From positions 5,177,205-5,241,204 of the forward strand of contig NC_045138.2 in assembly GCF_008831285.2 (NCBI RefSeq): a stretch of DNA of 64,000 nucleotides. The letters are read 5' to 3'. Position numbers and translations under genes: made by a program. Origin of the DNA: Nymphaea colorata. Lineage: Eukaryota; Streptophyta; Magnoliopsida; Nymphaeales; Nymphaeaceae. The notes below the pieces were generated by a model that saw nothing but the letters and a program-made list of their open reading frames with translations, was not told the DNA's origin and made no database searches. Every line of letters begins with the position of its first letter. Within the stretch, counting starts at the first letter, position 1. Shown in pieces: positions 11,280 to 37,741 of the stretch.

Positions 11280-12300
11280 ATCCTCTCTAAAATGATATAG
11301 AAAAGATCATACAATGAAATTTCTCCTAACCCTTGTGCCTTGGGGACCACAACCCTATTTATAGACTTATGAGGGTCCAAATGAAGGCTTTGCCCATCAT
11401 AAACCAGATATGGATCCCCTCTGACTTCTACACATTCTACACAAATAATGTATATCAGATGAGATGATACAAACCCAAATTTATTAGGTCACCTTAAATT
11501 GGGTCTATCTACATACATAGACTATAATGTACGACTATCAATACATTTATAGGCCCAATTAAATGACATAGATCAAGTATGGCTATGCAACATGAAAATT
11601 AGATCTTAACATGTCTATTTCCAATTGGTCCAACCTTATACTTTTGCGAGATCACAACCAAATAAATTCAGAGTGAACTGAAAAGAACTATGTTTTATAA
11701 CAAAAGACTGACATGTCTGGAACAAAAGTGTCCAAGCATAAACTCCCACTCAAACAGATAAGTCCTTAAACAACAAAACATCTATATGAGCAATGTGCTG
11801 ATGAAAGACTTTGGGCAAAACACATTTAGTGAGCGGATCCAGAATCATAGAGTTTATGCCAATGTATTTAATAGACACTTGACCACTCTGAATTTTTTCT
11901 TTAACAACAAGGTACTTAATGTCAAAGTACTTTGACTTTGACGAACTCCTGTTGTTGGAATATAGGACTGCAAAGTTATTGTCACAATATAACTTGCGGT
12001 CTTTCGATTCCATATATAATATGCAGATTAGTGACAAAATTTTGAATTTTGGATGTCTCATAACAAGCAACAAATTCTGCTGCCATAGTCGAAGAAGCAA
12101 TGAGTGTCTATTTGACACTTATCCATGAAATTGCTCTCCCAACCAATAGATAGACGTAGGCTGATGTCGATCTCTCACTATCTTGTCATCCAGCAAAACT
12201 AGAACCAGAATAACCAATGATCTCAAAACGATTTGATTTCCTGTACGTAAACATGTAACCTTTTGTCTTTTAGAGATGTCGCATAACCCTTTTGGCTACT
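11280..12300 (-). mobile_element. Ty1/copia relic F (RNase H end and 3' non-coding region)
   Basis: On the minus strand 12118-11750 encodes the end of a copia RNase H domain: a CDNNFAVLYSNN block, then SKYFDIKYLVVKEKIQSGQ and DPLTKCVLPKVFHQHI. Upstream, to about 12290, further RNase H pieces are readable in broken frames. After the stop, a non-coding stretch contains TTGGACCAATTGGAAATAGA, which closely matches TTGGACCAGTTGAGAATAGA downstream of the copia pol at 51866. The two elements are therefore the same family. A TATAAATAGGGTTGTGGTCC motif on the minus strand near 11360 suggests LTR remains. The element is 5'-truncated and inactive. Confidence 0.75.
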
Positions 12301-13305
12301 TTCCAATGTTCGACTCCATTTACATATTATATGTCATAGGAGATCTTGGTCATTGTCATAGGAGATCTTGGTCATTTATTTATACTTCTTGTAGTAACCG
12401 TTCTGAAATTAAATGTAGCTATATTACAAGCTCATGTTTCTACAATCTCAATCTATATTTACTTGAATGATGCTACAAATCTCCATAAGGTTGGTTCAGC
12501 CAGTAGAGGAATAGCTTGGAACTCTAATAAAAGGCGCGAGGAATGATTTTAGTCAGGTAGAATACAAAATTCATTCCCAACGTGCACATTCTCATTCAAG
12601 GTGGTTGTCCACACCAGCTTCTCAATGTTCCTTTATTTTTATATTGACTGCTTTAGATATTTGTTTTTTATTATATGAACCACTTAACGTATAGAAACTT
12701 CTAAAAGAGTGCCCCTTAATTTTCTGGGCTATGCTATGATCATTAAGGCCTCCATGGTAAAATTATCAATGTACAAAAGGAAGATTTTTTAGTAAAAGAG
12801 GTCCGACTTTTTTGTATGAATTTTTTTTCAATTTCGATGAAAAATGCATGGTAAAATTTATTGTGTTTGATGCTACAGAAAAAACCGTACAAACTTGAAA
12901 AAAAAATCTACCCTATACAGTATTTCTCTTTATTTTTTTGTGCATCAAACGAGGCCTAAAGATAAACTATCAGTTGAGAAGAGTAGATAATAGTTAGAAA
13001 AATTATGTAGTGTCTTGTTCACATGAATCGTACCCGAAGCCGTGACGTCTTCTGTCCGTGACACCTTGAGGCGGTGTTTGATTGCAGGGGCATTCGAGCG
13101 ACCATAACGGTCCTTGGATTTACTCCTCCGAGCCCCTTCTTATCACATAACCGGAGTGTTCCAAGGGGGGAACGGCGTTGCTTGGTGGCTACCCCAGGCA
13201 AAATCGGTCCGTGCATCCATGGATCAGACATTGCCAAACACGGAGGGGCTACCCTCCCGCCTTCCGGGGTTAGAGAGAGAAAGAGAGGACGGTGAAGCGA
13301 AGAAG

Positions 13306-16300: not shown

Positions 16301-19300
16301 TTAACTTATATAAAAAGTTGCAATATTTGTAATTTTGTACAACAGATAAAATGATGAGTTTGAGTTCAAAATTCTAGGTCCTGCTCTTTACATTAGTAGC
16401 TGTGCTATTAGAGGCATATGCTCGCCTCAGAATCTAGGCACATGGAATGGCGTTGGAGGTGCAGCACATGCTGCACTTTGAATCTTTTGTTAACCAAAAT
16501 CTTAACTGCTAAGAAAAGTCACTACACTCTTTTCCCACACCCTCCTTCTCTATTTTCATTTATTCTTTTGATGATTTCTGTTTTAATGATTGAATAATGT
16601 TAACTTTTGAGTATGTTTTCTTTGGTAGAAATTCATGATTTTCCATATGTCTTCATTGTTTTTATTGTTTGTTTCAGTAATAATATTTAGAACTTTTGAA
16701 GGTTAGCAACAACTGATTTTTCTCCCAACACAAATGAACACAAATAAATAAATATACACATACACCCCCAATATTAGGAGCGACCCTGTTTTATTGTTCT
16801 TGAGAACGTAGTTCTGGTATCATTATAGTATTTGACTTTCCTAAGTAAATTGAACTACAGAAATTACTAATTATTCTTTGTATCTGCATTCTTCTACTTC
16901 ATCAAATTAAAAATTCATACCAATAATTAATTTTTATAATACATAACCACGTGTCAGTGATCTTAATGTCCAAAGGTCCAACGCTGTAAAGTGCACAACT
17001 TAAAGGCACAGTTACATGAAAGAATTACAAAAAAGTAAGGAAACTAGGTTAAATGTTCTCTATGAATGTGCCTTGCATAAGCAAAGATATATAAAAAAAG
17101 TAATAAGAGGCAAACATAAAGCACCAATTGAACATAAATTTAACAAAAAAAAGATCCATATTTCACTTGAACAAAGTACATCTATTAGACCAACTTAAAC
17201 TTGAAGAGTCCTAATGCGTGGGCAAAATTTTAAGTTTTCAACTACATAATTCTAAATTTAAATCCATAATAACAAGCTTTTAAAGACTTGTACCAATCAA
17301 GGTCTTGTCTTTGTAGCATGCTTGGATCTTGGTTGTTACTTATCATTTCCCATTTTGTCTGTGGTTCCACATTCAAGCATATTTGTTTCCGTAGTAAGGA
17401 CAGGAAGAGGACCTTTTAGGAAATGACAAGAATTTTAGAGAATTTTGCTACTTCAAAATGCAAACGAGGCTGCTAAAAGGATTTCTCGTCAAGGTGTTAA
17501 GAAGGCTATATATCACACCAGGGAAAAATTTGCTGTCCAGTGTCATTCTTGCCAGGCAGATCATCATTTTAGTTTGTTTCTCTGTTGGATTTCTTGCATT
17601 GGGGCAACTGGTTTTACTTAAGCACAAGGCTTCTTTTCTAGCAGCTATTGGACCTGCAGAGGAAGGTGCGAGCTGATGTAAGCTCTGAGTACTGGCTGCA
17701 AGAGAAATGCTCATTTCCAGACAAACATTTGTTTGACTGGGGAATGATGAGGCTGAGGCGCAGTCTTCCATTATTTGGTAATGGAGATGCTTCTTATGTG
17801 GAAGTTGATGATCACCAGCGAAAGAGACGGGATGAAGAGGTAAAAAAAATTGTACTTTTTACATCTTTGGTTGGGCTTCATATATAAATCATTTTAGTTT
17901 TGCTTGCTCTAACAAGAATTTTCTCTGTCCAGAGGCTGTCAAGGTTAGAACAAGAAGAGAAAAACAGAACAGAAACCAGAAAAAGAAAATTTTTTAATGA
18001 ATTGCTTAATGCATCCCGTGAGTTCCAAAATCAAGCACAAGCTGCTCTGAAACGTCGAAAACAGAGGAATGATGGGATCCAGGTCTCCTTTGCGTTTGTG
18101 TGTGTGTGTGTGTTGGAATATCTTCTCTCTTAAATCATATGAGGAGATTGATTTGGATATTCTCTTGTCTCTGTAATAATTTAATTGACAGATTTCATGC
18201 TGTTCTATAGGCATGGCATGCAAGACAGAGGCAAAGGGCCACAAGGGCAGAAAGGCTTAGGTTCCAAGCACTAAAAGCAGATGACCAGGAAGCATATTTG
18301 CGGATGGTTGAGGAGAGTAAGAATGAACGACTGACTACTCTTCTAGGAAAAACCAATGAGCTCCTTTTTCGGCTTGGAGCTGCCGTTCAACGGCAGAAGG
18401 ATGCAGAGCATGCTGATGGATCTGAATCTGTTCGAGGATCTGATACTGATGATGCAGCACAGATATCTCTATCTAATGCGGATGTGGTTCTGGATGATGA
18501 ACTAAACATGATTGATATGGATTCAGGTCATTCAGTCAAGACAAATGACTTGCTTGAAGGCCAACGCACATACAACTCAGTTATTCATTCCATCCAAGAA
18601 AAGGTAACTTGATATAGGCATATAGCTGCAATATTTTCTGGAAACTTTATAGCTTAGTTGCACTTAGTCTATTTATGATTGCAAGTGGATGATTTATGCT
18701 GTGGGCTCAGCTCCCACTTCAAGGATAATCAGGTCCGAGTTGCAGAGAACATTTGCCAGTGAAATTTCTCAAATATTGCAAATCAGTTGGTCTTGTGCAT
18801 GTGACAAGTTAATAGGGAAAATTTTCAGCAGGGTTACTTGTGCTGCTTATGATTCAGTTGTCAGCAGGTTGCATCTATATTCACACTAAAGATGCATGTT
18901 ATCAGGCAGATAATGAGTTGAGTTGACATTGAGAAGTCATGATGATCATGGAACACCTTTGCAACTGTTCTCTGGTCTCAGGGTTGTTATACAAAAATAG
19001 TTAATTTTCTTGTATGGTACTTCTGAAATTTTTCCGTTACTTGGCCCTTCTGCAGTTAGATTCCTGAATATATCTATCAAGTTCTCTATTGGGAATTGAA
19101 AGGAAAAATAGAACTAAGCTTTGACATGATTTTTCAGGTTACTGAGCAGCCGGCAATGCTTCAAGGTGGTGAACTTCGGTCATATCAAGTGGAGGGTCTG
19201 CAGTGGATGCTTTCGCTGTTCAACAACAACCTGAATGGCATTTTGGCTGATGAGATGGGGCTAGGGAAAACTATCCAGACAATTGCATTACTTGCATATC

Positions 19301-22300
19301 TAATGGAGAATAAAGGAGTGAGTGGACCACACTTGATTGTAGCTCCAAAAGCCGTACTTTCTAATTGGGTCAATGAATTTGCAACCTGGGCTCCTAGGTA
19401 TGCAGAACTGTGGGGTTCCTTTTCTTATTCTGTTTTGTATCATTTATTTTTTTTGTCTTAATTTCGTTCATTCTTTATTTGGCGAACGGCTTCAAAGGAC
19501 TTCAATTAACAAGGCAGAGATGATAAGAATGAGAGATGATTAATAGTCACCAACATCAGGGCATTGGTTTCAGTGTCGATCTGCTACCTTTTTGTAACGG
19601 GTGCCCCTGGGTACTGACAAGTTCAATCACTTGATGCTGCACCAAGCATTTCTTGTCACCCTCATATAGAATCTTGAATTACAAGCCTATTGCTTTCAAT
19701 CTGATATGAAATACGAACCTATTATCCAACAATTCATTTCCCAAACCTTTCATAATTTACTTTTATAAGCATGATCCCTGGTTAGGATTCATTTGTTTTT
19801 CACCTACAACCTTTTATTTTCTACCTCTCATGACTCGAAAAGGATATGATTTTATTTTTCTTTATTTTTTGTTTGATGACTGCTTAGGAAGCCTCATTTT
19901 TTCATTGATAAGCATATAGAGAAGCGTGCATTATACACATCAAAAGAAAGTGGCCTTCGGACATATTCGGCTAATGATGAATTTGTCTTCTTGATGCTTG
20001 GCTCAAGATTCTAGATCTGGCCTCAGGTTAGAATATAGCAGATCTTTCTAGTAGCAGTAGAATAAAAATGGATTAACCTCCATCCGCTATGGAGCTTTGA
20101 GTCAATTTTCATTGTAAAATCTGTTAATCAGGCCATGATGACCAAGTGCCTTACCTTATAGATGTTATCAAGAAATGTTGCCATTGGATAGGGGTTGAAG
20201 CATGGTTGCTGGAAAGTTTTTCCTGTAAGAACAGTCCATATGTGTCTAGTAGAATTCTTAGATTCACGACCACAGAAACATTGTAGCATCATATATATAA
20301 TGAACAGCAGAAGTTTCAGCTGCTTGAAGGTGGGAAGTGTGATGAGCTGGGAAAAATAAATTAGTTGGTTTTGTTGTGGCCTTGATAGCAAATAGTAGCA
20401 TCTGAAGATACTATTATTGATTGAGAAGAATTTCTGCTTCTATGTCGTTAGAAAGTTGAAATGCAGTTGTCTTCTTGTAAAGTTGGAGTGAAAGTGGTGG
20501 GTCCTCTTGAGTGGATATTTGAAAGGTTAGCGTGTGAGTGCAGGAGCAGCTTCTGTCCCTAGATACTGACTTCAAAGCCAATGTTAGAAGGTGAGCTTAA
20601 GTCTATGATTATGGCTGTTGTTCCTGTTCATATCAAGTTGTCAGGAAAATAAGTGCCGTTTGACTTCTCTGCTCGCCTCGGTGGTTATAGATTGGCTGGC
20701 TCTGTACTTCATCGTTCATCACATCTGAGGCAATGGCTTTGCCATTTGCTTGTGATGCTCTCTCCATCTGCAGTACACCCACTTCCTATGGTGTTGTGGT
20801 TAGGCGACTTGGATAGAATATCCAGAGAAGGCAAGTAGCTGTACTAACTGGCGTAGTTAAGTCTTGTTAATTCAAGTTATTCATTCTTCATCTCTCTCAG
20901 CTCCTTGCCTGAAGCTGACCCACGGCACAACACCTATGTCACATGGGTGCTGGTACGGTATGGGTATGGATACGAAGATGCGGGTATGATGATTTTAGAA
21001 AACTTGGGTATAGGGGTACGACAAAGTGTATAAATTGTAAATATATATATTATATATAATAATCCACAAAAAATCTCAAAATTAAAGAAAAATGAGAGGA
21101 AAATATAGAACCTTAGTGGAAGGGAAATATAAAAGAAGGGACAAATCAAAATCAAAGAAAAAATTAAGTTTGAAAATATAATTTTCAATGTTTTAAAATG
21201 CAGCCTTACCCACGTATCGACACAGGTACCTGGGCAAATCTTCTAGCACAACACCCATTTTCTGGCTGTGTGGAATTGGTACTTTCACATGGGAAATCAA
21301 AGTATTCCGGTATTCCCTGGGTTTGTATTGTAGTTTGTGTGGTTGCAGTGAAGGCAACCATATCCTAGATGCCTTTTAACAAAGTGAGACAAAGCTGGTG
21401 GTATTGAGAGCAAAGGGGGGTAAGGCCTTGAAGGTTTTGAGTTGTATAATGTAAAATTGATCAAGGCATGGCTTCAGTATCTCCCTTGTCATTTTATCAA
21501 GCAAAATTAAGGTGGATATGAGGCTAGGCACTTGCATCTGGTGCCTTCAGTTGCATGTCTGTTATGAGATTTTTACTGGTGGTGTTCTGTCCATATAAGT
21601 ATGAAACCTATGTATGTATTTCTAATTTCATATGTTCCAACAGGGATTTCATATGCTTCTTATTTTCCATTCCTTTCTGTTTGGCACACTTAAGTTTCTT
21701 ATATCTTGTCAGTTCTGTTACCAAGGACTTTAACTGTTCTATAACCTTTTTTCCCTATATGTTGTTTTAGTATTTGAGGATCCAAACAAAGAACATTCTT
21801 TAGATATTTGATGTCAAGGAAAAGGTTCTCACATGTTGGAAGTTGCCAAGTAGTTATCATGTGTCCTTTTTCCAGACTCAGTTTAGTTATTGTGCTTGAA
21901 ATTAAAGAACTGACCCCTCGAAAGGTGCACACTTTTTGTTTTTGACTTAGTTAGAGATCTGGTAAATTTGCATTATTATTTGGTAATGAGTGAAACATAA
22001 TATCGAGGTGCCCTTAATATCCAACCAGTTGAAGAATGGTGGTCATTTTGATTTGGTTCACCAAGATGTATGAGAGTGAACTCCAACTATGTCTTTCTGG
22101 TTGCCATAGACAAAATCAAATGGAGAGATTGAGCCTGTATAATTGACTGATGAAGACAGATGGATCACTCACTAATGTTCTTATGGAGTTGTTTATACGG
22201 CGTCTTCTGGAGATGTAATGCAATGGTTAATGCACTTCAAGTTTTTTTAAGAACAATGTGATTCTAAGCTATCAAGTAGAAAGGAACTAATCTTATAAAT

Positions 22301-23744
22301 TTGGAAAAATAGTCTATGAGGGAAAATTTCCTGGTTAACTAGCCAAAGAATGTTAAGTTACCAGGATGTGTAAATTGAGTGGATTATGTTTTGCAAACTG
22401 TGAGCAGGATTTGATGTAGTACCTGGATGAGCGTGGCGTGATTGCATTCTAATGTTTAGTTGCTCGGGAGGTTTGCACTTATGCATTGATGCCTAACCTT
22501 GTTACTGTGGTCACTATAGATTCAAGGCATACAATCACAAATGGTTATCTCTGTGACATATTTAGGCTTTTGTCATTTATTTAGCGACCATGAGACAGGG
22601 TTCTATTGTGATGGTGGAGAGATTGGTGCAGGGTTGACCTATTGACCTTAAAGGGGCACTATCAACTGAAACTGAAGATTCATGTGTCCAGTGAGGTCAA
22701 TGACATTCATGATAGTATTTCATGCATAATGAGAACCACTAGAAGTAGTTTTTTTTTTCTTTAGCACTTGTCAGGCTTAATTTATTTGCTTCTTTGGATT
22801 GTTTCTTTCCAAAATAATGTATGCACTTCATAATGCCAGCTTCCTTTAGAGTAATCTTTGCTTCATGCAGTATCCTTGCTGTTCTTTATGATGGTCGTGC
22901 AGTTGAAAGAAAAGTACTGAGGGAAGAATATTCTGGTGAAGGAAAATTCAATGTCATGATAACACATTATGATCTCATAATGCGAGACAAATCTTTTCTG
23001 AAGAAAATCCACTGGTACTACATGATTGTTGATGAAGGCCACCGGTTGAAGAACCATGACTGTGCACTTTCACGCACATTGGTGACAGGGTAAACATTTG
23101 TTTAATGTTGATTTCTTTCGGTTTTAATTGTTTGTTTGATGCTCACTATAATGAATGTCTGCACCTAGATGTCACTATAATGGATGTCTTTACCTAGATG
23201 TGCTTACAGCTTATCTCTTTTCTTATATCCTTTGGCTAAAAATGTTCGCGTGAGAATATACCAATGCCAATAAATTCATCACCTGTTCTCTTAATAGCTG
23301 GCACTTTGGTTGGGCTCCCTGAGTTGCATGCATGTTTTAACTTCTTCGTGATGAGAAGAACCTAGAATTATCTATTTGTGTTTGAAAGTTTGATATGTTT
23401 GTTTGTCTTGTTTGTGCTTGATAAATAACAAGTTCCATGCCAACTTGGTTTGTAGACAATACTTTCTTATGATTTTATGTTTATTCTTACGATGAAGGCT
23501 CTTGTTCAAGGTTCTAAAACCCATGACTTGGGACTCAGCTCAAAGTGGATTAATTAGCGACTCCCTTGGTCAATTTGGTAATTGATCCTGTTTTTGCAAC
23601 TTCAAAAGTATTTTTCTCATATGTACATGATATTGTTTCCAATTCATTATAACATTGTTATATTATATATAATATGTATAATAATGTATGTAATATCAAA
23701 AGCAAATTTTAGTTACAGCATTAGTGCAATTATGTTACTAGATG

Positions 23745-23788
<44 letters not shown>

Positions 23789-26700
23789 CTCAATTTAACC
23801 ATGCTGTGACTGTGAGTCACTTTGAGTTTTTAAAGCACTCTACTTATTTGTTTCAATAGTAAATTGCTTGGGCTGATTATGAGATATCATGAGTTGGAAT
23901 CCTGGGTTGGCAACTTCTTAGATCTTTCTTTGTAACACGTAGATTATATTTGTTAACTTTTAAGTAATTTTGATCTTTGATTCTGCATAGAATGGGATAG
24001 CCGACAGAATTTGCCTCAGTATTTGTCACGAGGGTGATGGATCTCATAAAAGTTTGATATATCCATTGCAATGGTTTTGGGAAAAAGAAAGTCATCCCTA
24101 TATTAACCCTAATCTCTCTTAAATAGAGATTAGAGGAATAGTAAAGACATTACATCCAGGTCCACAGAGGAGATAAAAATATTAATCAGTACCCTTAAAA
24201 ACTTTCTAAAATTCTAATAACTATTCAACTAATGTAATTATTTCTCGCAAGACTCTCCCTAAACCTGGAACATATATGTTTATCATATTCAACTTATTAC
24301 AATATTTCGAGAACCCAGACGTAGATAAGGGTTTAGTAAAAACATTTGCAATTTGCCCTTCAGTGGAAACATGAATTGTAGAAATATTGCTTACTTGAAC
24401 CATATCCAGAATAATGATTGTCTACTTCAACATGCTTGATTCTGTCATGAAATACTGAATTGATGGCTGTATAGGATAATAGGTTGATGCCTTATTATCA
24501 CACATCATCTTCATCAGAAGTGAAACCTTTACTCCTAGACAGGATAGCATAGTTTTAACCTATGCCATTTGCTTTAGTTGTCTGAACGATTGCCGTATAC
24601 TCAGATTTTGCACTAGATCTTGCAACAATCGCCTGTTTCTTGCTCCTCCAAGTGATCAATTATCTCCTAGATACAATCCCAGTTGCAGATTTCATGTCTT
24701 CAACTGATCCTACATAATCTACATTAGTGTAGGGCTGTAGGCTATGATGTCCAGAGAATTATTTTTTGTAAATGGAAGTCTTTTTCTTGGAGACAACTTG
24801 AGGTAGTTTAGAACCATCATAGTTGTTCTCCAATGAATTTTTCTTGGTTTCTCTATAACTAACTCAATTTTCCCATAACTAGAGAGATGTTAGGTCGAGC
24901 AACTGTAACATATATGAGTTTGCCAATGAGAGACCTATATGACTTACCATCTATCAATTCTGAATCGTCCTCATACAAGTGGATATGTTGATTCATGAGA
25001 ATATTTGCAGGTTTAGTTCTAAGCATCCCAATTTTTTTGGGCAAGTCAAAGAGATATTATCGCTGTGAGAGAATCAAATCTTTATTGCTCCTCGCTAGTG
25101 CTATCCCCAAGAAGTATCCGAGTTGGCCAAGATCCTTAGTGACAAAATGTTTTTGCAGATACATCTTAGCTTAAGCAATCTCTTCCTTAGAGTCGCTTGC
25201 AAGTATAATATGTTTAACATATACTACCATCACAACCATACCCTTCAGACTCTTATTGATAAACAATGAATAGTCACATGGAGACCGCTGAATGCGAACC
25301 CTAGACATCACTTCATGAACTTTTGAAACCATCACCTTGGGCTTTGCTTAAGCCCATATATTTTTTTCTTCAACTTGCACACTTCCCATATGCCTCTTGT
25401 CACTCACAATGAGGTGGTTGTTGCGAGTAGAGACAGTCTTTGATAGATCACCATAGAGAAAAACAATTTTCATATCAAACTAAGATAAACTCCACTCATA
25501 ATGCACAATTATAGCAACAAACAATCATATACTCTCTAGTCTGGCAACTGGGATGAAAGTCTTAACGAAGTTCATGCTGTAGGTTTGAGTATATCCTTTT
25601 GCTACCAGATGAATTTTATGTCTCTTTATGAGTGATATTTGATAGAGTAGGCCCACTTATAGCAAACTATGCTTGCATAAAAAGGAGGAAAAAACAAGTC
25701 CCATGTGCCTCGAGAAATTAAAACATCCATCTCTTATTTCATTGTCTACATCCATTTAGGATGGAGAAGGGCTTGTTGGTGATAGGTAGCAATGGATGTG
25801 GCTGAAATAAAAGTCTGCATATTTTTGCCAACTCTATTTTTGTTGACAAATTTTGAGATGGGATGCGTAGTGCATTGTCAGATTGCTTTATGCAAAACAA
25901 TCAACAAATCATCATGTACAAGTGGAGTACCTATAAAACAATCATACTCAACTATAGTATCCTCGAGTCCGAAATACATACCTTCGGAGGAGATGACGTT
26001 GGGGACCATGAGCAGACGTGTGCTGCCTAGATTGGACTTATGGAGGATCCTAGAAACGAGAAAGAGAATGAGAGGAACACGACAAGGGAGGACATGACTC
26101 CAAAGGAATAGGAGGAATGGACAATGGAAAGTTGTCAGAGGTTTCAAAGTGGATATGGTGACCAGAACTGGAGAAGTATGAAACTGACTTAAAGAAGGTG
26201 ACATCCTGACATAGTTTTTATAGGCAATAGGATCATAACATTGATATCCTTTTCTATTCTTGGGATATCCAATAAATATACATTTTGTAGCTTGTGGGGA
26301 CAATTTATCTTGATTGGGTCCAAGTTTGTGCTCAAAGCAAACACAACAAAAAGGTTGAGGTGCAATATGAAACAACTGGCCTTCAAAACAAATAATCTAG
26401 ATAGAAATCTTATTTCATATGGCTAAAGATGACATTCTGTTAATAAGGTAGCAAGCAATGAGTATAGCATCTCCTAAAAAATGTATCTAACATATTAGAA
26501 TGTATCATAATCTTGCGAGCCACATCTAGGAGATGCTTATGTTTATGGTCAGTGTAGAAACACGAACCACAAAGAGAGAGAGTGGAGAACGAACACACAA
26601 TCTACGTGGAAAACCTCAGAAAGAGGTGAAAAACCACGGGGAGGCTCTGACCTAGGGGCACACCGCAACCCTAGGAGAGAGAAAATTATATTTCACTTAA

Positions 26701-29213
26701 TTCAACACTAAACACAAGTGACAATATAAAGAGGGAGAGAGGAGAAGCCGCCTAGGGTACCGAGCCCGCCTCGGTACCCGCGCCCCATAGAACCGGGTCC
26801 AGGAATGGATCCGGTTCCCACAGCAACATATTCTAACACTCCCCCTCAAGCTTGGCATACATGTCAAACATGCCAAGCTTGCTAACATTCTTTTCGAATG
26901 AAGAAGTACAAAGCCCTTTAGTTAGGACGTCTGCAACTTGATCTTCAGACTTCATATATGGCAGAATCAGCTCCTTTGAGTCAATGCGTTCCCGGATAAA
27001 ATGACGGTCAATCTCCACATGTTTGGTCCTGTCATGTAGAACTGGATTATTGGCAAGATTAATCGCAGACTTGTTGTCACAGTACATCTTCATTTTATCT
27101 CCCAGTTCCACGCCAATATCAGTCAAAAGAATCTTCAGCCACACCATCTCTGTAACCCCCATTGCAACAGCCCTGTACTCAGCCTCAGCACTAGTCCTCG
27201 AACATACTTCTTGCCTCTTACTTCTCCAAACAACTAGGTTACCTCCAAGAAAGATACAATACCCTGTAGTAGACCTCCTTGTGTCAGTGCAACCTGCCCA
27301 ATCTGCATCTGAGTAGCCCTCAATAGTAAGTTTGTCTTGTCGAGTATACAGCAGTCCTTTTCCTGGGTCATTCTTTAGATATCCCAACACTCTTTCTGCA
27401 CTCTTCCAGTGACAATCCGTGGGAGCATGCATAAATTGACTTAGCACATTTACCGCATACGTGATATCAGGGCGAGTTAGAGTAAGATAGATAAGCTTAC
27501 CTACTAGCCTCTGATATCGCCCTTTTCCTTCCTCATCCAGAATAGTGCCCGTCTTGATACTTATCTTAGTTCCCGACTCTATAGGAGTAAGATAGGGCCT
27601 ACAACCAAGTTTGCCTGTCTCCTTTAGTAAGTCAAGAGTGTACTTCCTTTGATTCATAACCAGCCCTGTCTCTGATCGAGCAATCTCTATCCCCAGAAAG
27701 TATCTCAGCTTACCCAGATCCTTGAGGTCGAATTCCTTAGCTAATCTCTCCTTCATCTTTCTGTTTTCTTCTTCGTCACTGCCAGTGACAATCATATCAT
27801 CAACGTAGACAAGGAGAAGACTCACCAGACCACCTCTCTGCTTTATGAATAGGGTATGATCTCCATTTCCTTGCTTGTACCCAGTAGACTTCATAACGAT
27901 CCTTAGTCTCTCAAACCAAGCTCTAGGCGACTGCTTCAAGCCATACAAAGCTTTCTTGAGGTGACAACATTTTCCCTCTTGAACATACCCGGGAGGCATG
28001 CTCATATAGACTTCTTCCTCCAGATGGCCGTTCAAGAACGCATTTTTAACATCAAGCTGGTCCATGCGCCACTTCCTGTGCACAGCAAGAGCAAGAATAA
28101 CCCTCACGGTCTTCAACTTTGCAACAGGGGCAAAGGTCTCAAGATAGTCGATCCCATACTTCTGGCTGAACCCCTTTGCAACCAAACGAGCTTTATATCG
28201 ATCTACAGTGCCATCAGGTTTGTACTTCACGTTGTAAACCCACTTAGAGCCAACTAAGTGTGTCCCTTTAGGAATATCAACAACTTCCCATGTTTTGTTC
28301 TTAGCTAACGCACCCATCTCCTCTGTCATAGCATGTAACCACTTGGGATCATCCTTAGCATCATCCACCGACCTGGGAATAACAACTTTGGATAAGGTTG
28401 TGATAAAACATTTGTAATTTGTACTGAGCTTAGCATAAGAAACAAATCTCTGAATAGGGTGAGAAGTACATGACCTGGTGCCTTTGCGCACAGCAATGGG
28501 GAGCTCTTCATTCGATGGACTTGGGTCATCCGGGGAGATCACAGGATTGGGATTGGTTCTATCCTCATCACCAACATCTTCCACTGTAGCTTTCTCCTTT
28601 CTGACATAAACCTGGCCAAACAAGTGATCCCGGGCAACAATGGGCTGAGCATCCACCGTGACCCCTTCCATATGGCTGCCCTTCTCATTACTGACCGTGA
28701 CCGTGTCAATCACACTGGGACTAACCTTGTAATCCAAAAACTCCATAAACTGAATTAGCTGATTAGAGGAATACTCTTCCCCTTTGTTCCCAAGACACTC
28801 CCCCTGAAGAGGATTCACCGAAAAATACGACTCATGTTCATGAAATGTGACATCCCTCGAAACATACACTTTGGAAGTAGTGGGATCCACACATTTATAC
28901 CCCTTCTGAGTGGAAGAGTACCCCAAGAAAACTCCTTTAATAGACCGGGGATCAAGTTTTTTGAGAGTAGGGCTATGATTATGCACAAAACAACTGCACC
29001 CAAAGACACGAGGAGTAAGAGGCCACGGATTCTGAGTGGGCCACAGGGTAGAATAAGGAGACTGACCATCCAACACCCTAGTAGGCATACGGTTAATGAG
29101 ATGTGCACTAGTGAGAAGTGCATGCAACAAACCCTTTTGTTTTGAGAAGAGTTGCTCTTTGTGATAGAAATGTAGCACCAATATCTGTAACCCGAAAACA
29201 GCACTCACGCAGG

Positions 29214-29255
<42 letters not shown>

Positions 29256-32200
29256 ACAAGAAGAAACTGAGGAGAAGAAGCCGTAGCCAAAATGGTTTGC
29301 ACGGCCTCTATTTATAATCTCATTTTCAGAATTCTAAGAGTCTCCAATCGTAGAATCCTAGGAGATTTCACAAGCTCCAAGGACATTAATTACATCATAG
29401 AAACCTAAGAGACTTCACATATTACAAGGATATTAACTACAACATAGAATCCTAGGAGACTTCCCATATAACAAGGATATTAACTATAACATAGAATCCT
29501 AGGAGACTCTTCACATGTTACAAGGACATTAAATATTTTAACACATTCTACAAGGAGGTGGAATCCTAAGAGACTCCTCTTCAACGTGCTGGTGAAGGAT
29601 TTATATTTTAACACCCTCCCTCAAGTTGTGCATGGTTTTGCACCATGTACAACTTGCCTTTTAGAAACCAGAATCGTTCCTTTGTTAATCCTTTTGTAAA
29701 TAAGTCTGCAACTTGTTCATCTGTACGAACATAAATAGGCTGAATTTCCTTGTCTTCCACCTTTTGTCTAACAAAGTGTTGATCAATCTCAATGTGCTTT
29801 GTTCGACCATGTTGTACGGGATTAAAGGCAATGTTAATAGCGCTTTGATTATCGCACATTAACATTGATGTTTTAATCTTTTCTCCAATGTCTTCTAGCA
29901 AATGTCTAACCCATGTAACTTCAGCAGTACCTGCAGCCATGCATCTGTATTCAGCTTCAGTGCTGGATCTTGCGACTGCCTTTTGCTTTCGACAACTCCA
30001 AGACACAAGATTACGTCCAATGAAAATACAAAAACCAGAAATGGACTTTATTTGATCGGGATCTCCAGCCCAATCTGCATCTGTGAATGTCATAAGTTGA
30101 TGTCCAGTAGTTATATTTTCACTCTTACCATAAACTAAGCCATCTCCTGCTGTCCCTTTAAGATATCTTAATATTCTTTTGACAGCATCCATGTGAGTAT
30201 CTCTAGGTGCATGCATAAATTGGGATACTTGATTCACAGCATATATAATATCTGGTCTAGTAAATGTAAGATATTGAAGTGCCCCAACAATACTTCGATA
30301 TTGCGTAGGATCTTCATATAACTCCCCATCTTGAGCACTTAGTCTTTGATTTAGAACACTAGGAGTTCCAACAGGCTTACAATCAGACATACCTGACTTT
30401 TTCAACAAATCCAACGTGTATTTCTGTTGTGTCAATGTGAGGCGATTATTGTGCCTATCAATCTCCACTCCAAGAAAGAATCGTAAATCACCAAGCTCTT
30501 TCATTTTGAAGTTTTGCATCATCAAAACTTTAGCTTCTTCTATGTGTTTTTCTGAATTGCCTGTGATAACAATATCATCAACATATATAAGAAGTAAAGT
30601 AAATATGTTTTCCTTTCGATAAATGAAAAGAGAGTGATCTAGAGGACATCTCCGAAAACCACATTCTTGAATCTTGCAAGAGAAACTGTCAAACCACGAA
30701 CGTGAGGCCTGTTTAAGTCCATAAATAGATTTTCTTAGTTTGCAAACCCATGCATGAGAGTCTCCTTTCGTGTATCCTGGAGGTTGTTCCATATATACTT
30801 CCTCCCTTAAATCACCATGAAGAAAAGCATTCTTCACGTCCATTTGATGTAGTCTCCATCCATATTCAACTGCCAATGATATAATCACGCGAATTGTTCC
30901 CATTTTGATCACAGGGCTGAATGTCTCATCATAATCTTCTCCATATTGTTGTGTAAACCCTTTTGCTACTAACCTTGCTTTGTGTCTTTCTATGCTGCCG
31001 TCAGGTTTGTATTTAATTTTGTATACCCATTTGGAGCCCACTACGTTCTTTTCGTGTGGCCTCGGAACGATCTCCCATGTTCCACATTCATGCAAGGCAT
31101 CCATTTCTTCTTTCATAGCCTTTCTCCAATGATGTGATTTTGATGCTTCATCAAATGAAGTAGGTTCTTCCTCCTTGCCAACTTTTGCCATGAATAACTG
31201 AAAATCAAGTGATAAAGAATCATAGCTAACCCACCTGTGAATGGGATGACGAATGCGTTGGGATCTTCTAAGGTGGGGCATGTTGTCTTCTTCACTGTGA
31301 GCATCTCTGTCCCTTAGTCGTCGACTGTAGATAAGACCCGAATACCGATGTGCATCGTTGCTCTGTTCATTATTGTTTTCGTGATGACTTAATGACTGTG
31401 TTGGATCTTCTTGATTTTCACTTTGAGCTATATCCGACGGTTGTATTGCTCTCTCTGAATCTTCACTTTGAGGCACATCATTTTCTATAACAGGATCTGC
31501 ATTGAATAACTGTGTACTGGTCCAGGGATCATAAGATTCAATGGTCATAGGCATTTCATTTGTATTATCAAAACTATGTTCATCAAAAATGACATTTCTT
31601 GAAGTTTTGATACGTTTAGTTGTTGGATCATAGCATCGAAAACCTTTATATTCATCAGCATATCCAACGAATCTACATTGAATAGCTTTGTCTTGAAACT
31701 TGTTCCTCAAGGCAGCATCAACGTGAACATAGCATACACAACCAAAAACCTTCAAGTTCTTGTAATCAGGTTGTTTGCCTAAGAGTGTAAAATATGGCGA
31801 TTTAGACATCAAGAGTGTCATAGGCAAACAATTTATTATGTATACAGCAGTATGGAAGGCTTCAGTCCACAAGGAAATGGGCACATTAGTATCATGCATC
31901 ATGCTCATGGCGCTTTCAACTATATGTCGATGTTTCCGCTCAACTACACCATTTTGTTGTGGTGTGTAAGGGCAGGAAATTTGTCTAGTTATCCCTTTTT
32001 CACGTAGAAATTCAATAAAATCAAGCGATGAATATTCTCCCCCTCCATCACATTGAAAATGCACCACATTGGATGAAAATTTAGTTTGAATCATGGCATA
32101 GAAGTTTCGAAATATGTGAGGTACTTCTGATTTGTGTTTCATGAAGTAAATCCAGGTGAAACGTGAATAAGAGTCAATGAATAAGATATAATATCTTGAC

Positions 32201-34194
32201 CCAGACATGGAATCAATAGGGGCTGGCCCCCATACATCAGAAAAAATAGTTTCAAAAGGTTTGGAAGCCCTTTGATTTATATTATGGAAAGGTAAAATAT
32301 GACTCTTACAAAGTCCACAACTTGAACATTTTTTGACACTTGAAGTAAGAGGTAAACTTGATCTTGGAATGAGACTATCTGTGACAAGTTTTTCAATGAA
32401 ATGTCGACCACAGTGTCCTAGCTGACTATGCCACAAATCAGACTCCAAAAATTGGTTAGGGCCCCTTACTTTTGATTGAAAATGGCAAGAACTTGGCACT
32501 GATGACGCATTATGAGAAAGAGAAAATGTCTTCAATCCTATATCAAAAGTGGATGAATCCTTGGGTAGACATTCCTTGAGGACGTACATATTCCCTTGAC
32601 GCTCCCCTCTAGCGAACATTTTCTTCGTTTGGAGGTCCTTGACATAGACAGAAGAAGGTGTGAATTCAACAGAAGAGCTTGTATCATCAATGAGTTTAGA
32701 AATGGATATGATGTTCTTTTTTATATTGGGAGCAAGAACAACATTAGACAGTGATAGAGACGAGGATGACAATGGAATATGTGCATTTCCAATATGTGTA
32801 ATAGGATGAGATTTTCCATCACCTGTTATAATGCAACTTCTACCGTAATGAGGGGATAAGTTAGTCAATTTACCTGCATTTCCTGTCACATGGGTAGCTG
32901 CACCTGAATCCAAGAACCATTCTCCCTGCTCATTTTGCTTTATAGTCATCTTTGAGAATGCGGCCATCAATAGCTGTTGCATATCTTCAGCGGTGGATTT
33001 AGAACTTTGTCCTCCTTGTTTATAATCATGTCTTACCCCTTTGTTTTTATTTTGAGGATTAAACCAACATTGTGCCTTCATGTGTCCTTTCTTGTTGCAC
33101 TGAAAACAAATTGGTATTTTTCTTGAAGTATCCAAAGGAGACATACCTTGGTTATGTGGTGTTGGTAGAATGCCACGACCACCATGGTTGGAGTTCCCAT
33201 GGCTCTTACCAAACTTTACATTCATAGCCAACACATTTTGGGAGTTCCCTTGATCAGTCCTTTCAATGACTCTTTTCATATTCATTTCATGTTGGAGAAG
33301 TTTACCTTGTAGTTCGTTGAAGGAAGGCAGAACAGGAAGGACCTCAAGAGCTGTAATAAAAGCATGATAATCATGCCCAAGTCCATTCAAGGTTTGCTGC
33401 ACCTTTTCCTTATCAGAAATGTTATTCCCTGAGGCAGCAAGTTGGTCTGCGACGGCCTTAATACGCCCCAAATAATCCATGATAGACGTTGAACCTTTGC
33501 TCAAATTCTGAAATTCTTTCTTTAAGTACATAATTCGAGCTTCTGATATTTGGGAAAAGGTATCAGCAAGGGTTTCCCATAATTCTTCTGCAGTACAATC
33601 ATCAGAAACTGAAAGTAACACTTGTTGAGATAAAGTGGACAAAATATACGCAACCAGACTTTGATCACGTCTCATCCACATAGCATGTTCAGGATTGTTG
33701 TCTTCATGAACAGCAATAACTTCTCCTGCCTCATTTTTTATTTCCTGTAAGACGGATATTGGTGGAGCCTTTGTTGAACCATCGAGATGTCCAAAGAGGC
33801 CTTGACTTCTTATGAAAGGCATGATTTGCCTTTTCCAGATCAGATAATTCTCATGGTTGAGTTTTTCGGTAATAAGGTGAGGAAGAAAACTTGAGGACAT
33901 GCCAGAATGCGAAAGGTTTTCCATGACAGCAGAAAGGAATGGTATATAGGTAGAAGATGAGAGGGAAAGAAGACACGATATAACAAGATGTGTCCTTGGT
34001 AAGCAAGAAGAAAAAGGAACAAGAATTGTGCAAGAGAAAAGTAAATTCAGGATAGAGACAAGATGAGAAAAGAGTTCTAACCAGATCAGACCTGTTTGGG
34101 CATTTCGTTTGGTAGAGATAACGTAACCTGGCTCTGATACCATGATAGAAATGTAGCACCAATATCTGTAACCCGAAAACAGCACTCACGCAGG

Positions 34195-34236
<42 letters not shown>

Positions 34237-37200
34237 ACAAGAAGAAACTGAGGAGAAGAAGCCGTAGCCAAAATGGTTTGCACGGCCTCTATTTATAATC
34301 TCATTTTCAGAATTCTAAGAGTCTCCAATCGTAGAATCCTAGGAGATTTCACAAGCTCCAAGGACATTAATTACATCATAGAAACCTAAGAGACTTCACA
34401 TATTACAAGGATATTAACTACAACATAGAATCCTAGGAGACTTCCCATATAACAAGGATATTAACTATAACATAGAATCCTAGGAGACTCTTCACATGTT
34501 ACAAGGACATTAAATATTTTAACACATTCTACAAGGAGGTGGAATCCTAAGAGACTCCTCTTCAACGTGCTGGTGAAGGATTTATATTTTAACACTTTGG
34601 ATCATGATGGATCTTGTAGAAGTGTGAATATCAGGCACAATTACGAAACATACGGAAAAGATATTTCACTTACCACCAGGAGTATCATTTGTTTCACTTG
34701 GAAACTCAACGTTGCATTTCAATCTAATTATTGTTTCCTGGTTGTCATACCTTTATTTCTTTCTACTTCTGGATCAGAGAGCTTTTGTTCACTTCTAACA
34801 GAAATATATATCTTTTATTTGCAGTTATCATATTAAACGTAGGCTTCTTTTGACTGGAACTCCAATACAAAATAGTTTACAGGAGTTGTGGTCCTTACTC
34901 AACTTCTTGCTTCCAAGCATTTTCAATTCAGTAAAGAACTTCGAGGAATGGTTCAATGCACCTTTTGCAGATCGTGGTGATATTTCTCTGACAGATGAAG
35001 AAGAACTATTGATTATTCGTCGTCTGCATCAGGTAATAATAATTTTTTTTTTATTGTTTAGTTCATTCAGTTCTTTCTCTTATTTTACAATTGGTGTCTC
35101 TCAGGTTATAAGGCCATTTTTACTACGGAGGAAGAAAGATGAAGTAGAAAAGTTCCTTCCAGGAAAAACGCAGGTCATTTTGAAATGTGATCTGTCAGGC
35201 TGGCAGAAAGTTTACTATCAACAGATTACAGATATAGGAAGAGTTGGACTAGATTCAAGTATCGTCTTCTCTGACATTCTTCTTTTCTTCTTCCGGATCT
35301 GTGTTTATTTATTTCCTTATGAGGATATGGAGTTAATAGTTAGAAAGTTTTTGTTCTTTTATAAAGTCAATAGTACCACATACAGTTCCATTTCTGCAGT
35401 AACCATTGAAAACGTACAGGTACTGGAAAGTCCAAGAGCTTACTGAATTTGTCTATGCAACTAAGGAAATGCTGCAATCATCCTTATCTATTTGTTGGCG
35501 AATACAACATGCATCAGAAAGAAGAGATAGTGAGAGCATCAGGAAAATTTGAGTTGCTTGATCGCTTACTCCCAAAACTGCAAAAATCAGGGCACAGAGT
35601 CCTGCTTTTCTCACAGATGACACGTCTCATGGACATTTTGGAAATCTACCTGTCGCTGCATGGATTCTCATATCTGAGGCTTGATGGTGCAACAAAGACC
35701 GAGGAGCGAGGTGCATTACTCAAAAAGTTCAATGCACCAGATTCCCCCTACTTCATGTTTCTTTTAAGCACTCGAGCTGGTGGTCTTGGCCTTAATTTGC
35801 AGACTGCAGATACAGTTATATTGTTTGATAGTGACTGGAATCCGCAAATGGACCAGCAGGCTGAAGATCGAGCTCATCGGATTGGGCAAAAGAAGGAAGT
35901 ACGTGTTTTTGTATTAGTAAGTGTTGGGTCAATTGAGGAAGAAATCCTGGAACGTGCAAAACAAAAGATGGGGATTGATGCTAAAGTTATTCAGGCTGGG
36001 CTATTCAACACTACTTCAACAGGTTAATATGCTTGTCACTAGTTCTTGTTTATCTTAAAATTTGTGACTCCCGTAGGGATACAACTTTTGGTTGTTTGAA
36101 GGCCAAATGTTAAACTTCCTGCAAGTGTGTTTTGGACAGTTCTGAAGCCTTAAACATACCCCGTGTCTTGGAGAAACTGATGGAACAAAGTCTTTCTAAA
36201 TTCATGGGATTGTTTGAAGGCCAAATGTTAAACTTCCTGCAAGTGTGTTTCGGACAGTTCCGAAGCCATAAACATACCCCGTGTCTTGGAGAAACTGATG
36301 GAACAAAGTCTTTCTAAATTCATGGGATCTAGCTGAAACTCATGCCTTCATATGTTTTTTTAAAAATCACCTAATATATGCTTCTCTATAGTACAACCAG
36401 GGGATTAGCTCTTCAGTAATGCTTCTTGAATGTAGAAATAGAGATTTTCAAGGATCAAACTACAATTGTTCGAAATTTTCCCGCTTGGGTTCCCTTTTTG
36501 TACACTAGAAGAGGCATGATTCAACTTCTAAGGTTTTATTCTCATAGGCATGGCATCGTTTGGTTAAGTTTCATTAGAAAAATAGTCCATATGTGTTCTT
36601 AATGGGTTGGCCATCTAATGTTTGATTTTCAGTATTAATATGTTTCAAAACTATGATGTCATGAAGTGGTACTGGATTTACTAATCCATTCACATTTGTT
36701 TATTTGGGAAAAGGTTTGTTGTCGCCAGTACACTTGTTGAACTCTTGAAATCATGAAGGTAGTTTAATGCATATAATCTATTTTTCCTAGAATTTGATGC
36801 ACACATGAAAAAGAAACAAAAATATCTAGGTTGTAGGTTGACTTTGATCAGTACATGAATTTAGGGATTTCAAAGGGGCTAAATCTGAACGCTTGAAACG
36901 TCAATAAGTTAAGAGATGAACAATAGGTCAATTTTTTCTTTCTTTTTCATTTTGTGGAGATTTCCACCACAACATATACGTATTGGTATGTGATTTTTTT
37001 CAAATTTTTTCCTCTACAGCAAAGGATAGAAGAGAAATGTTGCAGGAGATAATGCGCAGAGGTACAAATTCTCTTGGAACAGATGTACCAAGTGAAAGAG
37101 AAATCAATCGGCTAGCAGCTAGGTCGGATGAGGAATTCTGGCTTTTTGAGAAGATGGATGAAGAGAGGCGACACAGGGAAAATTATCGGTCAAGACTAAT

Positions 37201-37741
37201 GGAAGAGCACGAGGTGCCAGAATGGGCTTTTGCTGCGCCAAACAGAAAGGAAGAAAAGACTGTTGGAGATGTGGATAAACATTTAGAGGGCAGCCAAAGC
37301 ACAGGGAAACGACGGAGGAAAGAAGTGATTTACACTGACCTGCTTAGTGATGTCCAGTGGATGAAAGCTGTCGAAAGTGGTGAGGATTTAGCACAGGCAG
37401 TTATGAGAAGCAAGAGAAAAGAACAGCTTGTGAGCACGACTGAGTCAACCAGTGAAATGATGCAAATCGAAAGGCAAGAATCAATAAATGGGGAAGAGGA
37501 GGATGAGGGGACGAGCAGCGATCTCTTTTCCAGTGTACCTAGAAAACTGAAATCTACAAAACCGAAGCCCTTTTTTCCTACCAAGGATGAAACTTTACCG
37601 CTTAACAAGGACGAAGTCGAATATCATGGTGGCAGTGGCTGGCCTGGGGATATTGTTACTTGGAAAGCCCATAAAAGGAGAACTAGTCACCTTGATGCGC
37701 GAGCACAACAGTGCAGTAATAGGGGAAACGGATGGGTATGA
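13306..37741 (+). CDS. CHR12: SWI2/SNF2 chromatin-remodelling ATPase, MINU/CHR12-CHR23 type (12 exons, 1,093 aa)
   Basis: Predicted nuclear DNA-dependent ATPase that remodels nucleosomes. Exons (all GT-AG, phases consistent): 13306-13461, 14996-15152, 15993-16057, 17645-17839, 17933-18082, 18211-18603, 19138-19397, 22871-23089, 34825-35032, 35105-35258, 35420-36022, 37020-37741; 3,282 nt. Order of parts: short N-terminal region; HSA-like charged helix in exons 5-6 (about residues 190-290); SNF2 ATPase with ADEMGLGKT (P-loop 410-417), DEGH 513-516 and LLLTGTPIQ 539-547; helicase C-terminal domain with [16 protein letters not shown] and RAHRIGQ 803-809; SnAC-like segment after residue 854; acidic and basic tail. 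Length matches the family, and there is no bromodomain. An in-frame upstream ATG at 13219 would add 29 residues; I chose 13306 because it fits the usual short N-terminus. The exon 1 donor (GAG/GTCACC) is weak. The symbol is by family resemblance and could equally be CHR23. No inactivating lesion is visible. Confidence 0.93.
17639..17645 (+). promoter_or_regulatory. NAGNAG tandem splice acceptor before exon 4 of the SNF2 gene
   Basis: The intron 3 end reads CTAGCAG/CTATTG. Either AG can be used without changing frame, which adds or omits one glutamine. The downstream AG (exon start 17645) best fits the family spacing between LELYGL and LQRKVRA. Confidence 0.55.
19398..22870 (+). other. Intron 7 of the SNF2 gene (3.5 kb)
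   Basis: Bounded by AG/GTATGC and TGCAG/T, in phase 2. Apart from a MITE-like repeat at 20938-21235 it holds no recognised family or open frame of note. Confidence 0.75.
20938..21235. repeat. MITE-like element in intron 7
   Basis: The left end (CATGGGTGCTGGTACGGTAT) and the reverse complement of the right end (TGCCCAGGTACCTGTGTCGA) are imperfectly alike and G+C-rich. They flank an AT-rich core of about 230 bp, which is MITE architecture. No clear target duplication was found. Confidence 0.4.
23747..23784. repeat. (TA)n microsatellite in intron 8
   Basis: TA run of about 38 bases. Confidence 0.9.
24040..26552 (-). mobile_element. Decayed Ty1/copia element B, interrupted by copia C
   Basis: Minus-strand pieces in pol order: integrase C-terminal region ([15 protein letters not shown] near 26530; [18 protein letters not shown] near 26290), RT ([16 protein letters not shown] near 25370), a [18 protein letters not shown] block near 24930, and the end [14 protein letters not shown] near 24370. 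The catalytic YVDD box reads YVKH (about 25225), so RT is dead even apart from the frameshifts. A polypurine-like tract near 24255 is followed by probable LTR remains down to about 24040. The right end stops inside the integrase domain exactly where the LTR of copia C begins, so C inserted into B. The 5' part of B is missing. Confidence 0.75.
26553..26838 (-). repeat. 3' LTR of copia C (286 bp)
   Basis: Starts TGTTAG and ends TACA on the minus strand, directly after the polypurine tract. No second copy lies in the window. Confidence 0.8.
26553..29161 (-). mobile_element. Ty1/copia element C, 5'-truncated, with open pol frame
   Basis: A 286-bp 3' LTR at 26553-26838 (TGTTAGAATATG...GTTTCTACA on the minus strand) is preceded by a GAGGGGGAG polypurine tract and the pol stop at 26833-26835. 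From that stop back to about 29160, roughly 775 codons are open without a lesion. Order: integrase C-terminal region ([20 protein letters not shown]), linker, RT with IYGLKQ-type block ([13 protein letters not shown]) and [12 protein letters not shown], and RNase H ending [15 protein letters not shown] and [11 protein letters not shown]. Gag, protease, the integrase core and the 5' LTR are absent, so it cannot move by itself. A TATA-like motif and promoter-type leader sequence lie within the LTR. Copia D is inserted at its right edge. Confidence 0.88.
29162..29613 (-). repeat. 3' LTR of copia D (452 bp)
   Basis: TG...CA ends on the minus strand (TGTTAAAATATA to TTTCTATCA). Contains a TATAAATA box at 29309-29316, a (GA)n run, and several imperfect tandem units of about 50 bp carrying GAATCCTAGGAGACT between 29340 and 29580. 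The pol stop codon TAA overlaps the first bases of the LTR. Confidence 0.93.
29608..33924 (-). CDS. Copia D gag-pol polyprotein (1,438 aa)
   Basis: Open from the ATG at 33924 (MENLSHSG) to the TAA at 29608-29610. Domains in order: UBN2-type gag; CCHC zinc knuckle [14 protein letters not shown] near residue 272; aspartic protease [10 protein letters not shown] near 335; GAG-pre-integrase HxxxH...CxxC near 495-545; integrase core with Asp near 560 and 622 and Glu near 658 (NGVVERKHR); RT with AFLHGDL and catalytic YVDDIVITG near 1113; RNase H with FTDADWAGD near 1280 and [14 protein letters not shown] near 1372. Its length and order are normal for a plant copia element. No stop or frameshift is seen. 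An upstream in-frame extension into the leader exists but lacks support. Confidence 0.92.
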   Translation of the reverse strand: MENLSHSGMSSSFLPHLITEKLNHENYLIWKRQIMPFIRSQGLFGHLDGSTKAPPISVLQEIKNEAGEVIAVHEDNNPEHAMWMRRDQSLVAYILSTLSQQVLLSVSDDCTAEELWETLADTFSQISEARIMYLKKEFQNLSKGSTSIMDYLGRIKAVADQLAASGNNISDKEKVQQTLNGLGHDYHAFITALEVLPVLPSFNELQGKLLQHEMNMKRVIERTDQGNSQNVLAMNVKFGKSHGNSNHGGRGILPTPHNQGMSPLDTSRKIPICFQCNKKGHMKAQCWFNPQNKNKGVRHDYKQGGQSSKSTAEDMQQLLMAAFSKMTIKQNEQGEWFLDSGAATHVTGNAGKLTNLSPHYGRSCIITGDGKSHPITHIGNAHIPLSSSSLSLSNVVLAPNIKKNIISISKLIDDTSSSVEFTPSSVYVKDLQTKKMFARGERQGNMYVLKECLPKDSSTFDIGLKTFSLSHNASSVPSSCHFQSKVRGPNQFLESDLWHSQLGHCGRHFIEKLVTDSLIPRSSLPLTSSVKKCSSCGLCKSHILPFHNINQRASKPFETIFSDVWGPAPIDSMSGSRYYILFIDSYSRFTWIYFMKHKSEVPHIFRNFYAMIQTKFSSNVVHFQCDGGGEYSSLDFIEFLREKGITRQISCPYTPQQNGVVERKHRHIVESAMSMMHDTNVPISLWTEAFHTAVYIINCLPMTLLMSKSPYFTLLGKQPDYKNLKVFGCVCYVHVDAALRNKFQDKAIQCRFVGYADEYKGFRCYDPTTKRIKTSRNVIFDEHSFDNTNEMPMTIESYDPWTSTQLFNADPVIENDVPQSEDSERAIQPSDIAQSENQEDPTQSLSHHENNNEQSNDAHRYSGLIYSRRLRDRDAHSEEDNMPHLRRSQRIRHPIHRWVSYDSLSLDFQLFMAKVGKEEEPTSFDEASKSHHWRKAMKEEMDALHECGTWEIVPRPHEKNVVGSKWVYKIKYKPDGSIERHKARLVAKGFTQQYGEDYDETFSPVIKMGTIRVIISLAVEYGWRLHQMDVKNAFLHGDLREEVYMEQPPGYTKGDSHAWVCKLRKSIYGLKQASRSWFDSFSCKIQECGFRRCPLDHSLFIYRKENIFTLLLIYVDDIVITGNSEKHIEEAKVLMMQNFKMKELGDLRFFLGVEIDRHNNRLTLTQQKYTLDLLKKSGMSDCKPVGTPSVLNQRLSAQDGELYEDPTQYRSIVGALQYLTFTRPDIIYAVNQVSQFMHAPRDTHMDAVKRILRYLKGTAGDGLVYGKSENITTGHQLMTFTDADWAGDPDQIKSISGFCIFIGRNLVSWSCRKQKAVARSSTEAEYRCMAAGTAEVTWVRHLLEDIGEKIKTSMLMCDNQSAINIAFNPVQHGRTKHIEIDQHFVRQKVEDKEIQPIYVRTDEQVADLFTKGLTKERFWFLKGKLYMVQNHAQLEGGC
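34129..34142 (-). other. Primer-binding site of copia D
   Basis: TGGTATCAGAGCCA on the minus strand, immediately adjacent to the inner edge of the 5' LTR; matches the 3' end of plant initiator-Met tRNA as established for copia elements. Confidence 0.85.
34143..34594 (-). repeat. 5' LTR of copia D (452 bp)
   Basis: Same sequence as the 3' LTR. TATAAATA box at 34290-34297 on the minus strand, with the probable transcription start a few tens of bases further toward lower coordinates. Confidence 0.93.
36092..36327 (+). repeat. 118-bp tandem duplication in intron 11 of the SNF2 gene
   Basis: Two adjacent copies (36092-36209 and 36210-36327), each starting TTGTTTGAAGGCCAAATGTT, differ at only a few positions, so the duplication is young. 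Confidence 0.9.

Follow-up and report, generated by a model that had tools for sequence, protein, structure and literature searches.

In Nymphaea colorata, a gene for a SWI/SNF-type ATPase contains, in the middle of the region coding for its catalytic domain, an 11.7-kb intron that appears to have grown by successive insertions of copia retrotransposons, and the gene is very probably a working one from which this intron is still spliced out in the normal way. The window, namely the whole stretch of 64,000 nucleotides analysed here, corresponds to bases 5,177,205-5,241,204 of contig C1 (NC_045138.2), and the genome searched comprised 407.8 Mb in 783 contigs. The features described below are collected in Table 1.

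Table 1. Features of the host gene and of the copia elements in its intron 8 (positions in the window)
Feature	Position	Strand	Remarks
Host gene, coding span, SWI/SNF-type ATPase	13306-37741	+	12 exons, 1,093 aa; from spliced frame, Pfam, BRG1
Host exon 1	13306-13461	+	
Host exon 2	14996-15152	+	
Host exon 3	15993-16057	+	
Host exon 4	17645-17839	+	
Host exon 5	17933-18082	+	
Host exon 6	18211-18603	+	
Host exon 7	19138-19397	+	
Host exon 8	22871-23089	+	ends within Gly 532 codon, after DEGH motif
Host intron 8	23090-34824	+	11,735 nt, GTAAAC...TTTGCAG
Element B, old copia remnant	24269-26552	-	integrase C-terminal part to RNase H; tblastn to 26468, rest by eye
Element C, 5'-truncated copy of very abundant young copia family	26553-29123	-	from family matches and junction comparison
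C 3' LTR	26553-26836	-	then integrase end-RT-RNase H
Non-C sequence from broken end of C to D	29124-29161	+	38 bp, D left target duplication included
D left target-site duplication	29157-29161	.	CTTTG
Element D, full-length young copia	29162-34594	-	5,433 bp; paired LTRs, target duplication, open gag-pol
D 3' LTR	29162-29613	-	452 bp
D gag-pol frame, uninterrupted	29608-34185	-	1,525 codons, listed from GTG inside 5' LTR
D 5' LTR	34143-34594	-	452 bp
D right target-site duplication	34595-34599	.	CTTTG
Stretch between D and exon 9	34600-34824	+	225 bp
Host exon 9	34825-35032	+	
Host exon 10	35105-35258	+	
Host exon 11	35420-36022	+	
Host exon 12	37020-37741	+	

The twelve exons of the host gene were picked by hand from the reading frame and the splice sites. 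Their spliced coding sequence of 3,282 nt is an open frame of 1,093 codons in which the only stop is the terminal one, and GT-AG borders were found at all of the 11 introns; the start codon is one pick among the in-frame ATGs and is not a proven one. A Pfam search on the joined protein detected SNF2-rel_dom in its complete length (1-290 of 290), Helicase_C, and SnAC, and a bromodomain was absent among the five Pfam families listed. This combination of SNF2, helicase C and SnAC without a bromodomain is the architecture of the MINU/CHR12-CHR23 ATPases, and from the domain architecture we take the host protein to be a putative SWI/SNF ATPase of the MINU1/CHR12-MINU2/CHR23 type. Its alignment with BRG1 (744.6 bits) extended over residues 317-991 and was free of gaps at residue 532. 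For Arabidopsis, four SWI2/SNF2 ATPases are named in the accessible part of PMC7037086. When the host protein was compared by tblastn with eight SNF2 loci of the same genome, no close copy was found, the best-scoring of the eight (L002) being 40.7% identical. We also noticed a 118-bp tandem duplication (97% identical) in host intron 11 (window 36092-36327).

At the left border of intron 8, exon 8 ends with ...ACA GG at 23089 and the donor GTAAAC starts at 23090; at the right border, the acceptor TTTGCAG closes at 34824 and exon 9 opens with T TAT CAT, the codon split between the two exons being GG/T for Gly 532. A first-pass annotation of this DNA had described an 11.7-kb intron dividing the SNF2 ATPase domain of an apparently intact gene, with exons 8 and 9 joining inside a glycine codon and all twelve exons in phase; the coordinates proved exact, and the open frame and the ungapped BRG1 alignment agree with that description throughout. 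The runner-up in length among the host introns is intron 7 with 3,473 nt. Transcripts read through from exon 8 into intron 8 would meet TAA right after Gly 532. Copia sequence accounts for 10,288 of the 11,735 nt of intron 8 (87.7%, with B counted as 24269-26552), by which the earlier figure of about 90% was a fair one, and the three elements B, C and D all lie on the minus strand, i.e., antisense to the host, just as had been claimed.

Among the three, D is the complete one and has the features of a Ty1/copia element: an LTR pair starting with TG and ending with CA (TGATAG...TTAACA), a 5-bp target-site duplication at both flanks, and copia-type gag and reverse transcriptase with the integrase ahead of the reverse transcriptase. 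The two LTRs are 100% identical (0 differences in 452 positions). Pfam domains in the gag-pol frame were Retrotran_gag_2 (157-305), rve (641-742), and RVT_2 (1036-1276), and neither protease nor RNase H was among the eight Pfam families listed for this frame. By eye, the sequence adjoining the 5' LTR is presumably a tRNA-Met primer site and that adjoining the 3' LTR presumably a polypurine tract. Within the LTRs, a ~47-bp unit is repeated in tandem (29347-29536 and 34328-34517). From 498 candidates in the genome, 40 LTR matches of the D family were scored, two of which were D's own, and 20 of the 38 others were compared as ten pairs. LTR matches in the fetched copies measured 442 to 468 bp, and every one of the ten pairs differed by 0-2 substitutions, length differences being left out. 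Since the fetched LTR pairs are nearly identical, the comparison suggests a recent burst of the D family.

Element C, on the other side, is broken. Out of 2,727 first-look candidates of its family, 40 were scored and gave 42 other matches, of which 39 span 26553-29123 at 98-100% and end there; the remaining three were short (72-98%). Past 29123, furthermore, the family sequence differed from the window in all five copies checked. From LTR end to LTR end, two family copies have lengths of 5,295 and 5,300 bp, and because C ends at 29123 with a remnant of 2,571 bp and the family copies are ~5.3 kb, C is truncated and has lost its 5' half. Neither of the two short stretches flanking D matched the missing part of C above chance level (best E 0.076 for 29124-29161 and 0.17 for 34600-34824), and the stretch next to exon 9 gave only chance-level matches with the D integrase as well (best E 0.48).

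Element B was recognized through tblastn of the C protein, which found pieces of the minus strand between 26468 and 24269 that match the integrase end, reverse transcriptase, and RNase H; these were 25-34% identical, save short ones of 21-22 residues at 67-68%. The 5' half of B was not seen within intron 8. In the 84 bp directly before the C LTR (26469-26552), integrase sequence with a frameshift was read by eye, but tblastn of this stretch with the integrase piece of D gave a best E of only 0.23. Partly from this reading by eye, C probably sits inside B. The elements had been described as nested, and this description likely holds for C in B but was wrong for D in C: the left target duplication of D is 33 bp past the end of C, and an insertion of D inside C was ruled out, the insertion site being outside C and in sequence of no C copy examined. 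As the target duplication of D is intact on both sides and lies beyond the break of C, the truncation of C predates the insertion of D. The simplest reading would be that one deletion took the 5' halves of both B and C.

For dating, we assumed between 1.3e-8 and 7e-9 substitutions per site per year, and the ages below depend on these rates. With no difference in 452 LTR positions (95% upper bound 0.0066), D is at most 0.25-0.47 million years old. Out of the 39 other family matches of nearly full length, 25 were compared with C (5 loci and 20 fetched copies; five were used at the junction); C has three private substitutions in 2,571 bp, the mean of the 25 copies being 3.28, and a calculation by hand gives an age of ~0.09-0.17 million years. 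Roughly, both insertions would then be ~0.1-0.5 million years old at most, and C and D are indeed young, as the first-pass annotation had put it.

Repeats of such high copy number as C are typical places of mis-joins, and one might suppose that the two halves of the gene come from separate places and were united by an assembly error. D is nonetheless surrounded by a perfect target duplication, and the halves are on one contig, in phase and in order, with a continuous BRG1 alignment, which makes a chimera exceedingly improbable.

We consider, therefore, a history of intron 8 in four steps: an old copia element, B, would have arrived in the intron; C, from a very abundant young family, would have inserted next, probably into the integrase region of B; a deletion would then have removed the 5' half of C, probably together with that of B; and the full-length D would finally have landed at a distance of 38 bp from the scar of that deletion. 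These insertions may have been tolerated by being sited between the canonical donor and acceptor and in antisense orientation to the host, because polyadenylation signals of antisense elements would not be read by the host polymerase. AATAAA occurs five times on the host-sense strand of intron 8 and eight times on the opposite strand, counts that say nothing either way. Most likely, the machinery that plants generally use for heterochromatic introns (IBM2/EDM2 type) keeps B, C and D silent and lets transcription run across them. Tolerance by orientation would not be universal, however, given that a rice survey, in its accessible part, found intragenic TEs to lack a strong preference for either orientation (PMC7145194).

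Long introns filled with TEs are already published for other plants, as are intact copia elements lying antisense within introns, and the case is ordinary in kind. RAC, an intact copia of 4.77 kb with a frame of 1,438 residues, resides in the first intron of the alpha-SNAP gene at soybean Rhg1; according to the accessible text of PMC6712407, it is antisense to the host and has many genomic relatives, its borders are methylated, and host mRNA and protein are made. In grapevine, the available portion of PMC3058033 describes an EST-supported, genome-wide set of 2,697 large introns (over 3 kb) with >80% repeats, where copia is ~6.5 times gypsy and a group of LTR pairs is 100% identical. D resembles RAC as an intact and antisense intronic copia with many genomic relatives, and intron 8 resembles the grapevine introns as a large intron enlarged mainly by repeats, rich in copia and with an identical LTR pair. 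Unlike RAC, a single element in intron 1, three elements (one of them truncated) are present here in intron 8 and inside an ATPase domain, and unlike the grapevine set, ours is a single gene. Heterochromatic introns are also reported for 4,227 of 37,866 rice gene models of diverse functions (PMC7145194, accessible part).

Alternatively, the allele might be weak or dead, with most of its transcripts ending or being mis-spliced in intron 8, and the open frame might merely reflect the youth of C and D. C and D do look too young for exon decay, and Arabidopsis genes with intragenic TEs show lower mean expression in the part of PMC4417168 at hand. Both splice sites of intron 8 are canonical, though, B suggests that the frame has survived a longer period with copia in the intron, and the soybean host of RAC still makes its mRNA and protein (PMC6712407, accessible text); such an allele is thus unlikely, and we favor a working gene.

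That intronic TEs draw heterochromatin and alter downstream transcription and polyadenylation, much as the first-pass annotation had noted, is in print (accessible parts of PMC4417168, PMC7145194, and PMC10241880). Among 206 intronic TEs of Arabidopsis, early polyadenylation was described at the tested loci upon loss of methylation (PMC4417168), and PMC10241880 likewise describes it at intronic TEs. TEs of ~5 kb lie in introns of RPP7, AT3G05410, and AT1G11270 (PMC4417168), which resemble our case in that the intronic retrotransposons are long and partly intact, and those three genes are expressed. Their methylation dependence and early polyadenylation have been studied.

The annotation had further conceived a feedback between the remodeller and the elements in its own intron; this was not supported, nothing beyond the arrangement itself pointing there. 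Its most specific form would be a sensor of heterochromatin like IBM1, in which methylation of the copia elements decides whether the gene is completed or ended in intron 8, and the remodeller feeds back on silencing. A proven precedent exists in IBM1, a chromatin gene whose isoforms are decided by methylation of intron 7 (PMC11265718, accessible part), and methylation loss at intronic TEs accompanies early polyadenylation at the tested Arabidopsis loci (PMC4417168). As in IBM1, the host is a chromatin regulator with a large intron, and an early-ended transcript would lack the catalytic part: intron 8 splits the catalytic domain, with TAA directly after exon 8 on read-through. In contrast, the mark sensed by the IBM1 intron is the one that the IBM1 protein itself erases, and isoform control of IBM1 is demonstrated; nothing comparable is known for the host gene. 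Moreover, as C and D are recent, any sensor based on them would itself be new and might be restricted to certain alleles. Nor does the mutation spectrum of C carry a signature of methylation: none of its three private substitutions is C>T or G>A, against 44 of 82 in the 25 other copies (chance of 0/3 ~0.10, by hand) and 16 of 24 in a comparison with five copies, but three substitutions are too few and give little power. A signature from dinucleotide and trinucleotide ratios was considered and dropped, the left non-TE part of the intron being as low as B (observed/expected 0.33 and 0.33 for CpG, 0.73 and 0.75 for CHG), and the ratios vary among segments. MINU-type remodellers are not known as TE-silencing factors. 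On balance, we regard a sensor as highly unlikely; if it existed, the transcript ended in intron 8 would encode an ATPase stopping after Gly 532, without the motifs beyond DEGH.

We then looked at other SNF2 genes of the genome, for which nine gaps between SNF2-domain fragments were fetched (2.2-8.8 kb, the larger ones picked by hand); intron 8 is longer than all of them. Copia was found in one of the nine, at the locus L064 (C4:15136046-15144877), with the gene on the plus strand and the element on the minus strand. Its stop-to-stop frame comprises 1,413 residues, its repeats of 166 bp (at 3115 and 8315) are identical, and CATAA was read by eye on both sides as a target duplication; L064 hence appears to be another SNF2 gene in which a domain gap is occupied by a full-length copia in antisense orientation. 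Searched with the proteins of C and D, the other eight gaps had zero matches at E 0.001; three of them contain more SNF2-like pieces and hence exceed a single intron. One could go on to speculate that young antisense copia elements in the ATPase domains of the host gene and L064 act as silencing-dependent dose switches, a recent counterpart of the IBM1 sensor, but we attach hardly any probability to this idea. SNF2-domain matches were also seen on contigs C148, C363, and C458 (41 kb), most of them with internal stop codons and with little room for introns; they are possibly retrocopies, pseudogenes, or foreign DNA.

Elsewhere in the window, an NLR-type resistance gene (Rx_N, NB-ARC, LRR) was noticed at 637-4556; it is divided between two frames that overlap (637-3264 and 3219-4556), an arrangement suggestive of a frameshift. 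More NLR pieces with winged-helix and LRR parts are on the minus strand at 47347-47982 and 62185-63054, and the remodeller gene hence sits in a resistance-gene neighbourhood. Copia remnants outside intron 8 are found at 7837-9301, 11774-12308, and 49558-51725, two on the plus strand and one on the minus strand.

In conclusion, the growth of intron 8 can be dated step by step, namely by an old remnant, a young insertion, a truncation, and a younger insertion, all within the region for a conserved catalytic domain whose frame has been kept. The case illustrates the speed of intron turnover in plants and alone alters no current view. If an allele without D exists, alleles with and without D would provide a natural pair for examining effects of the element on splicing.
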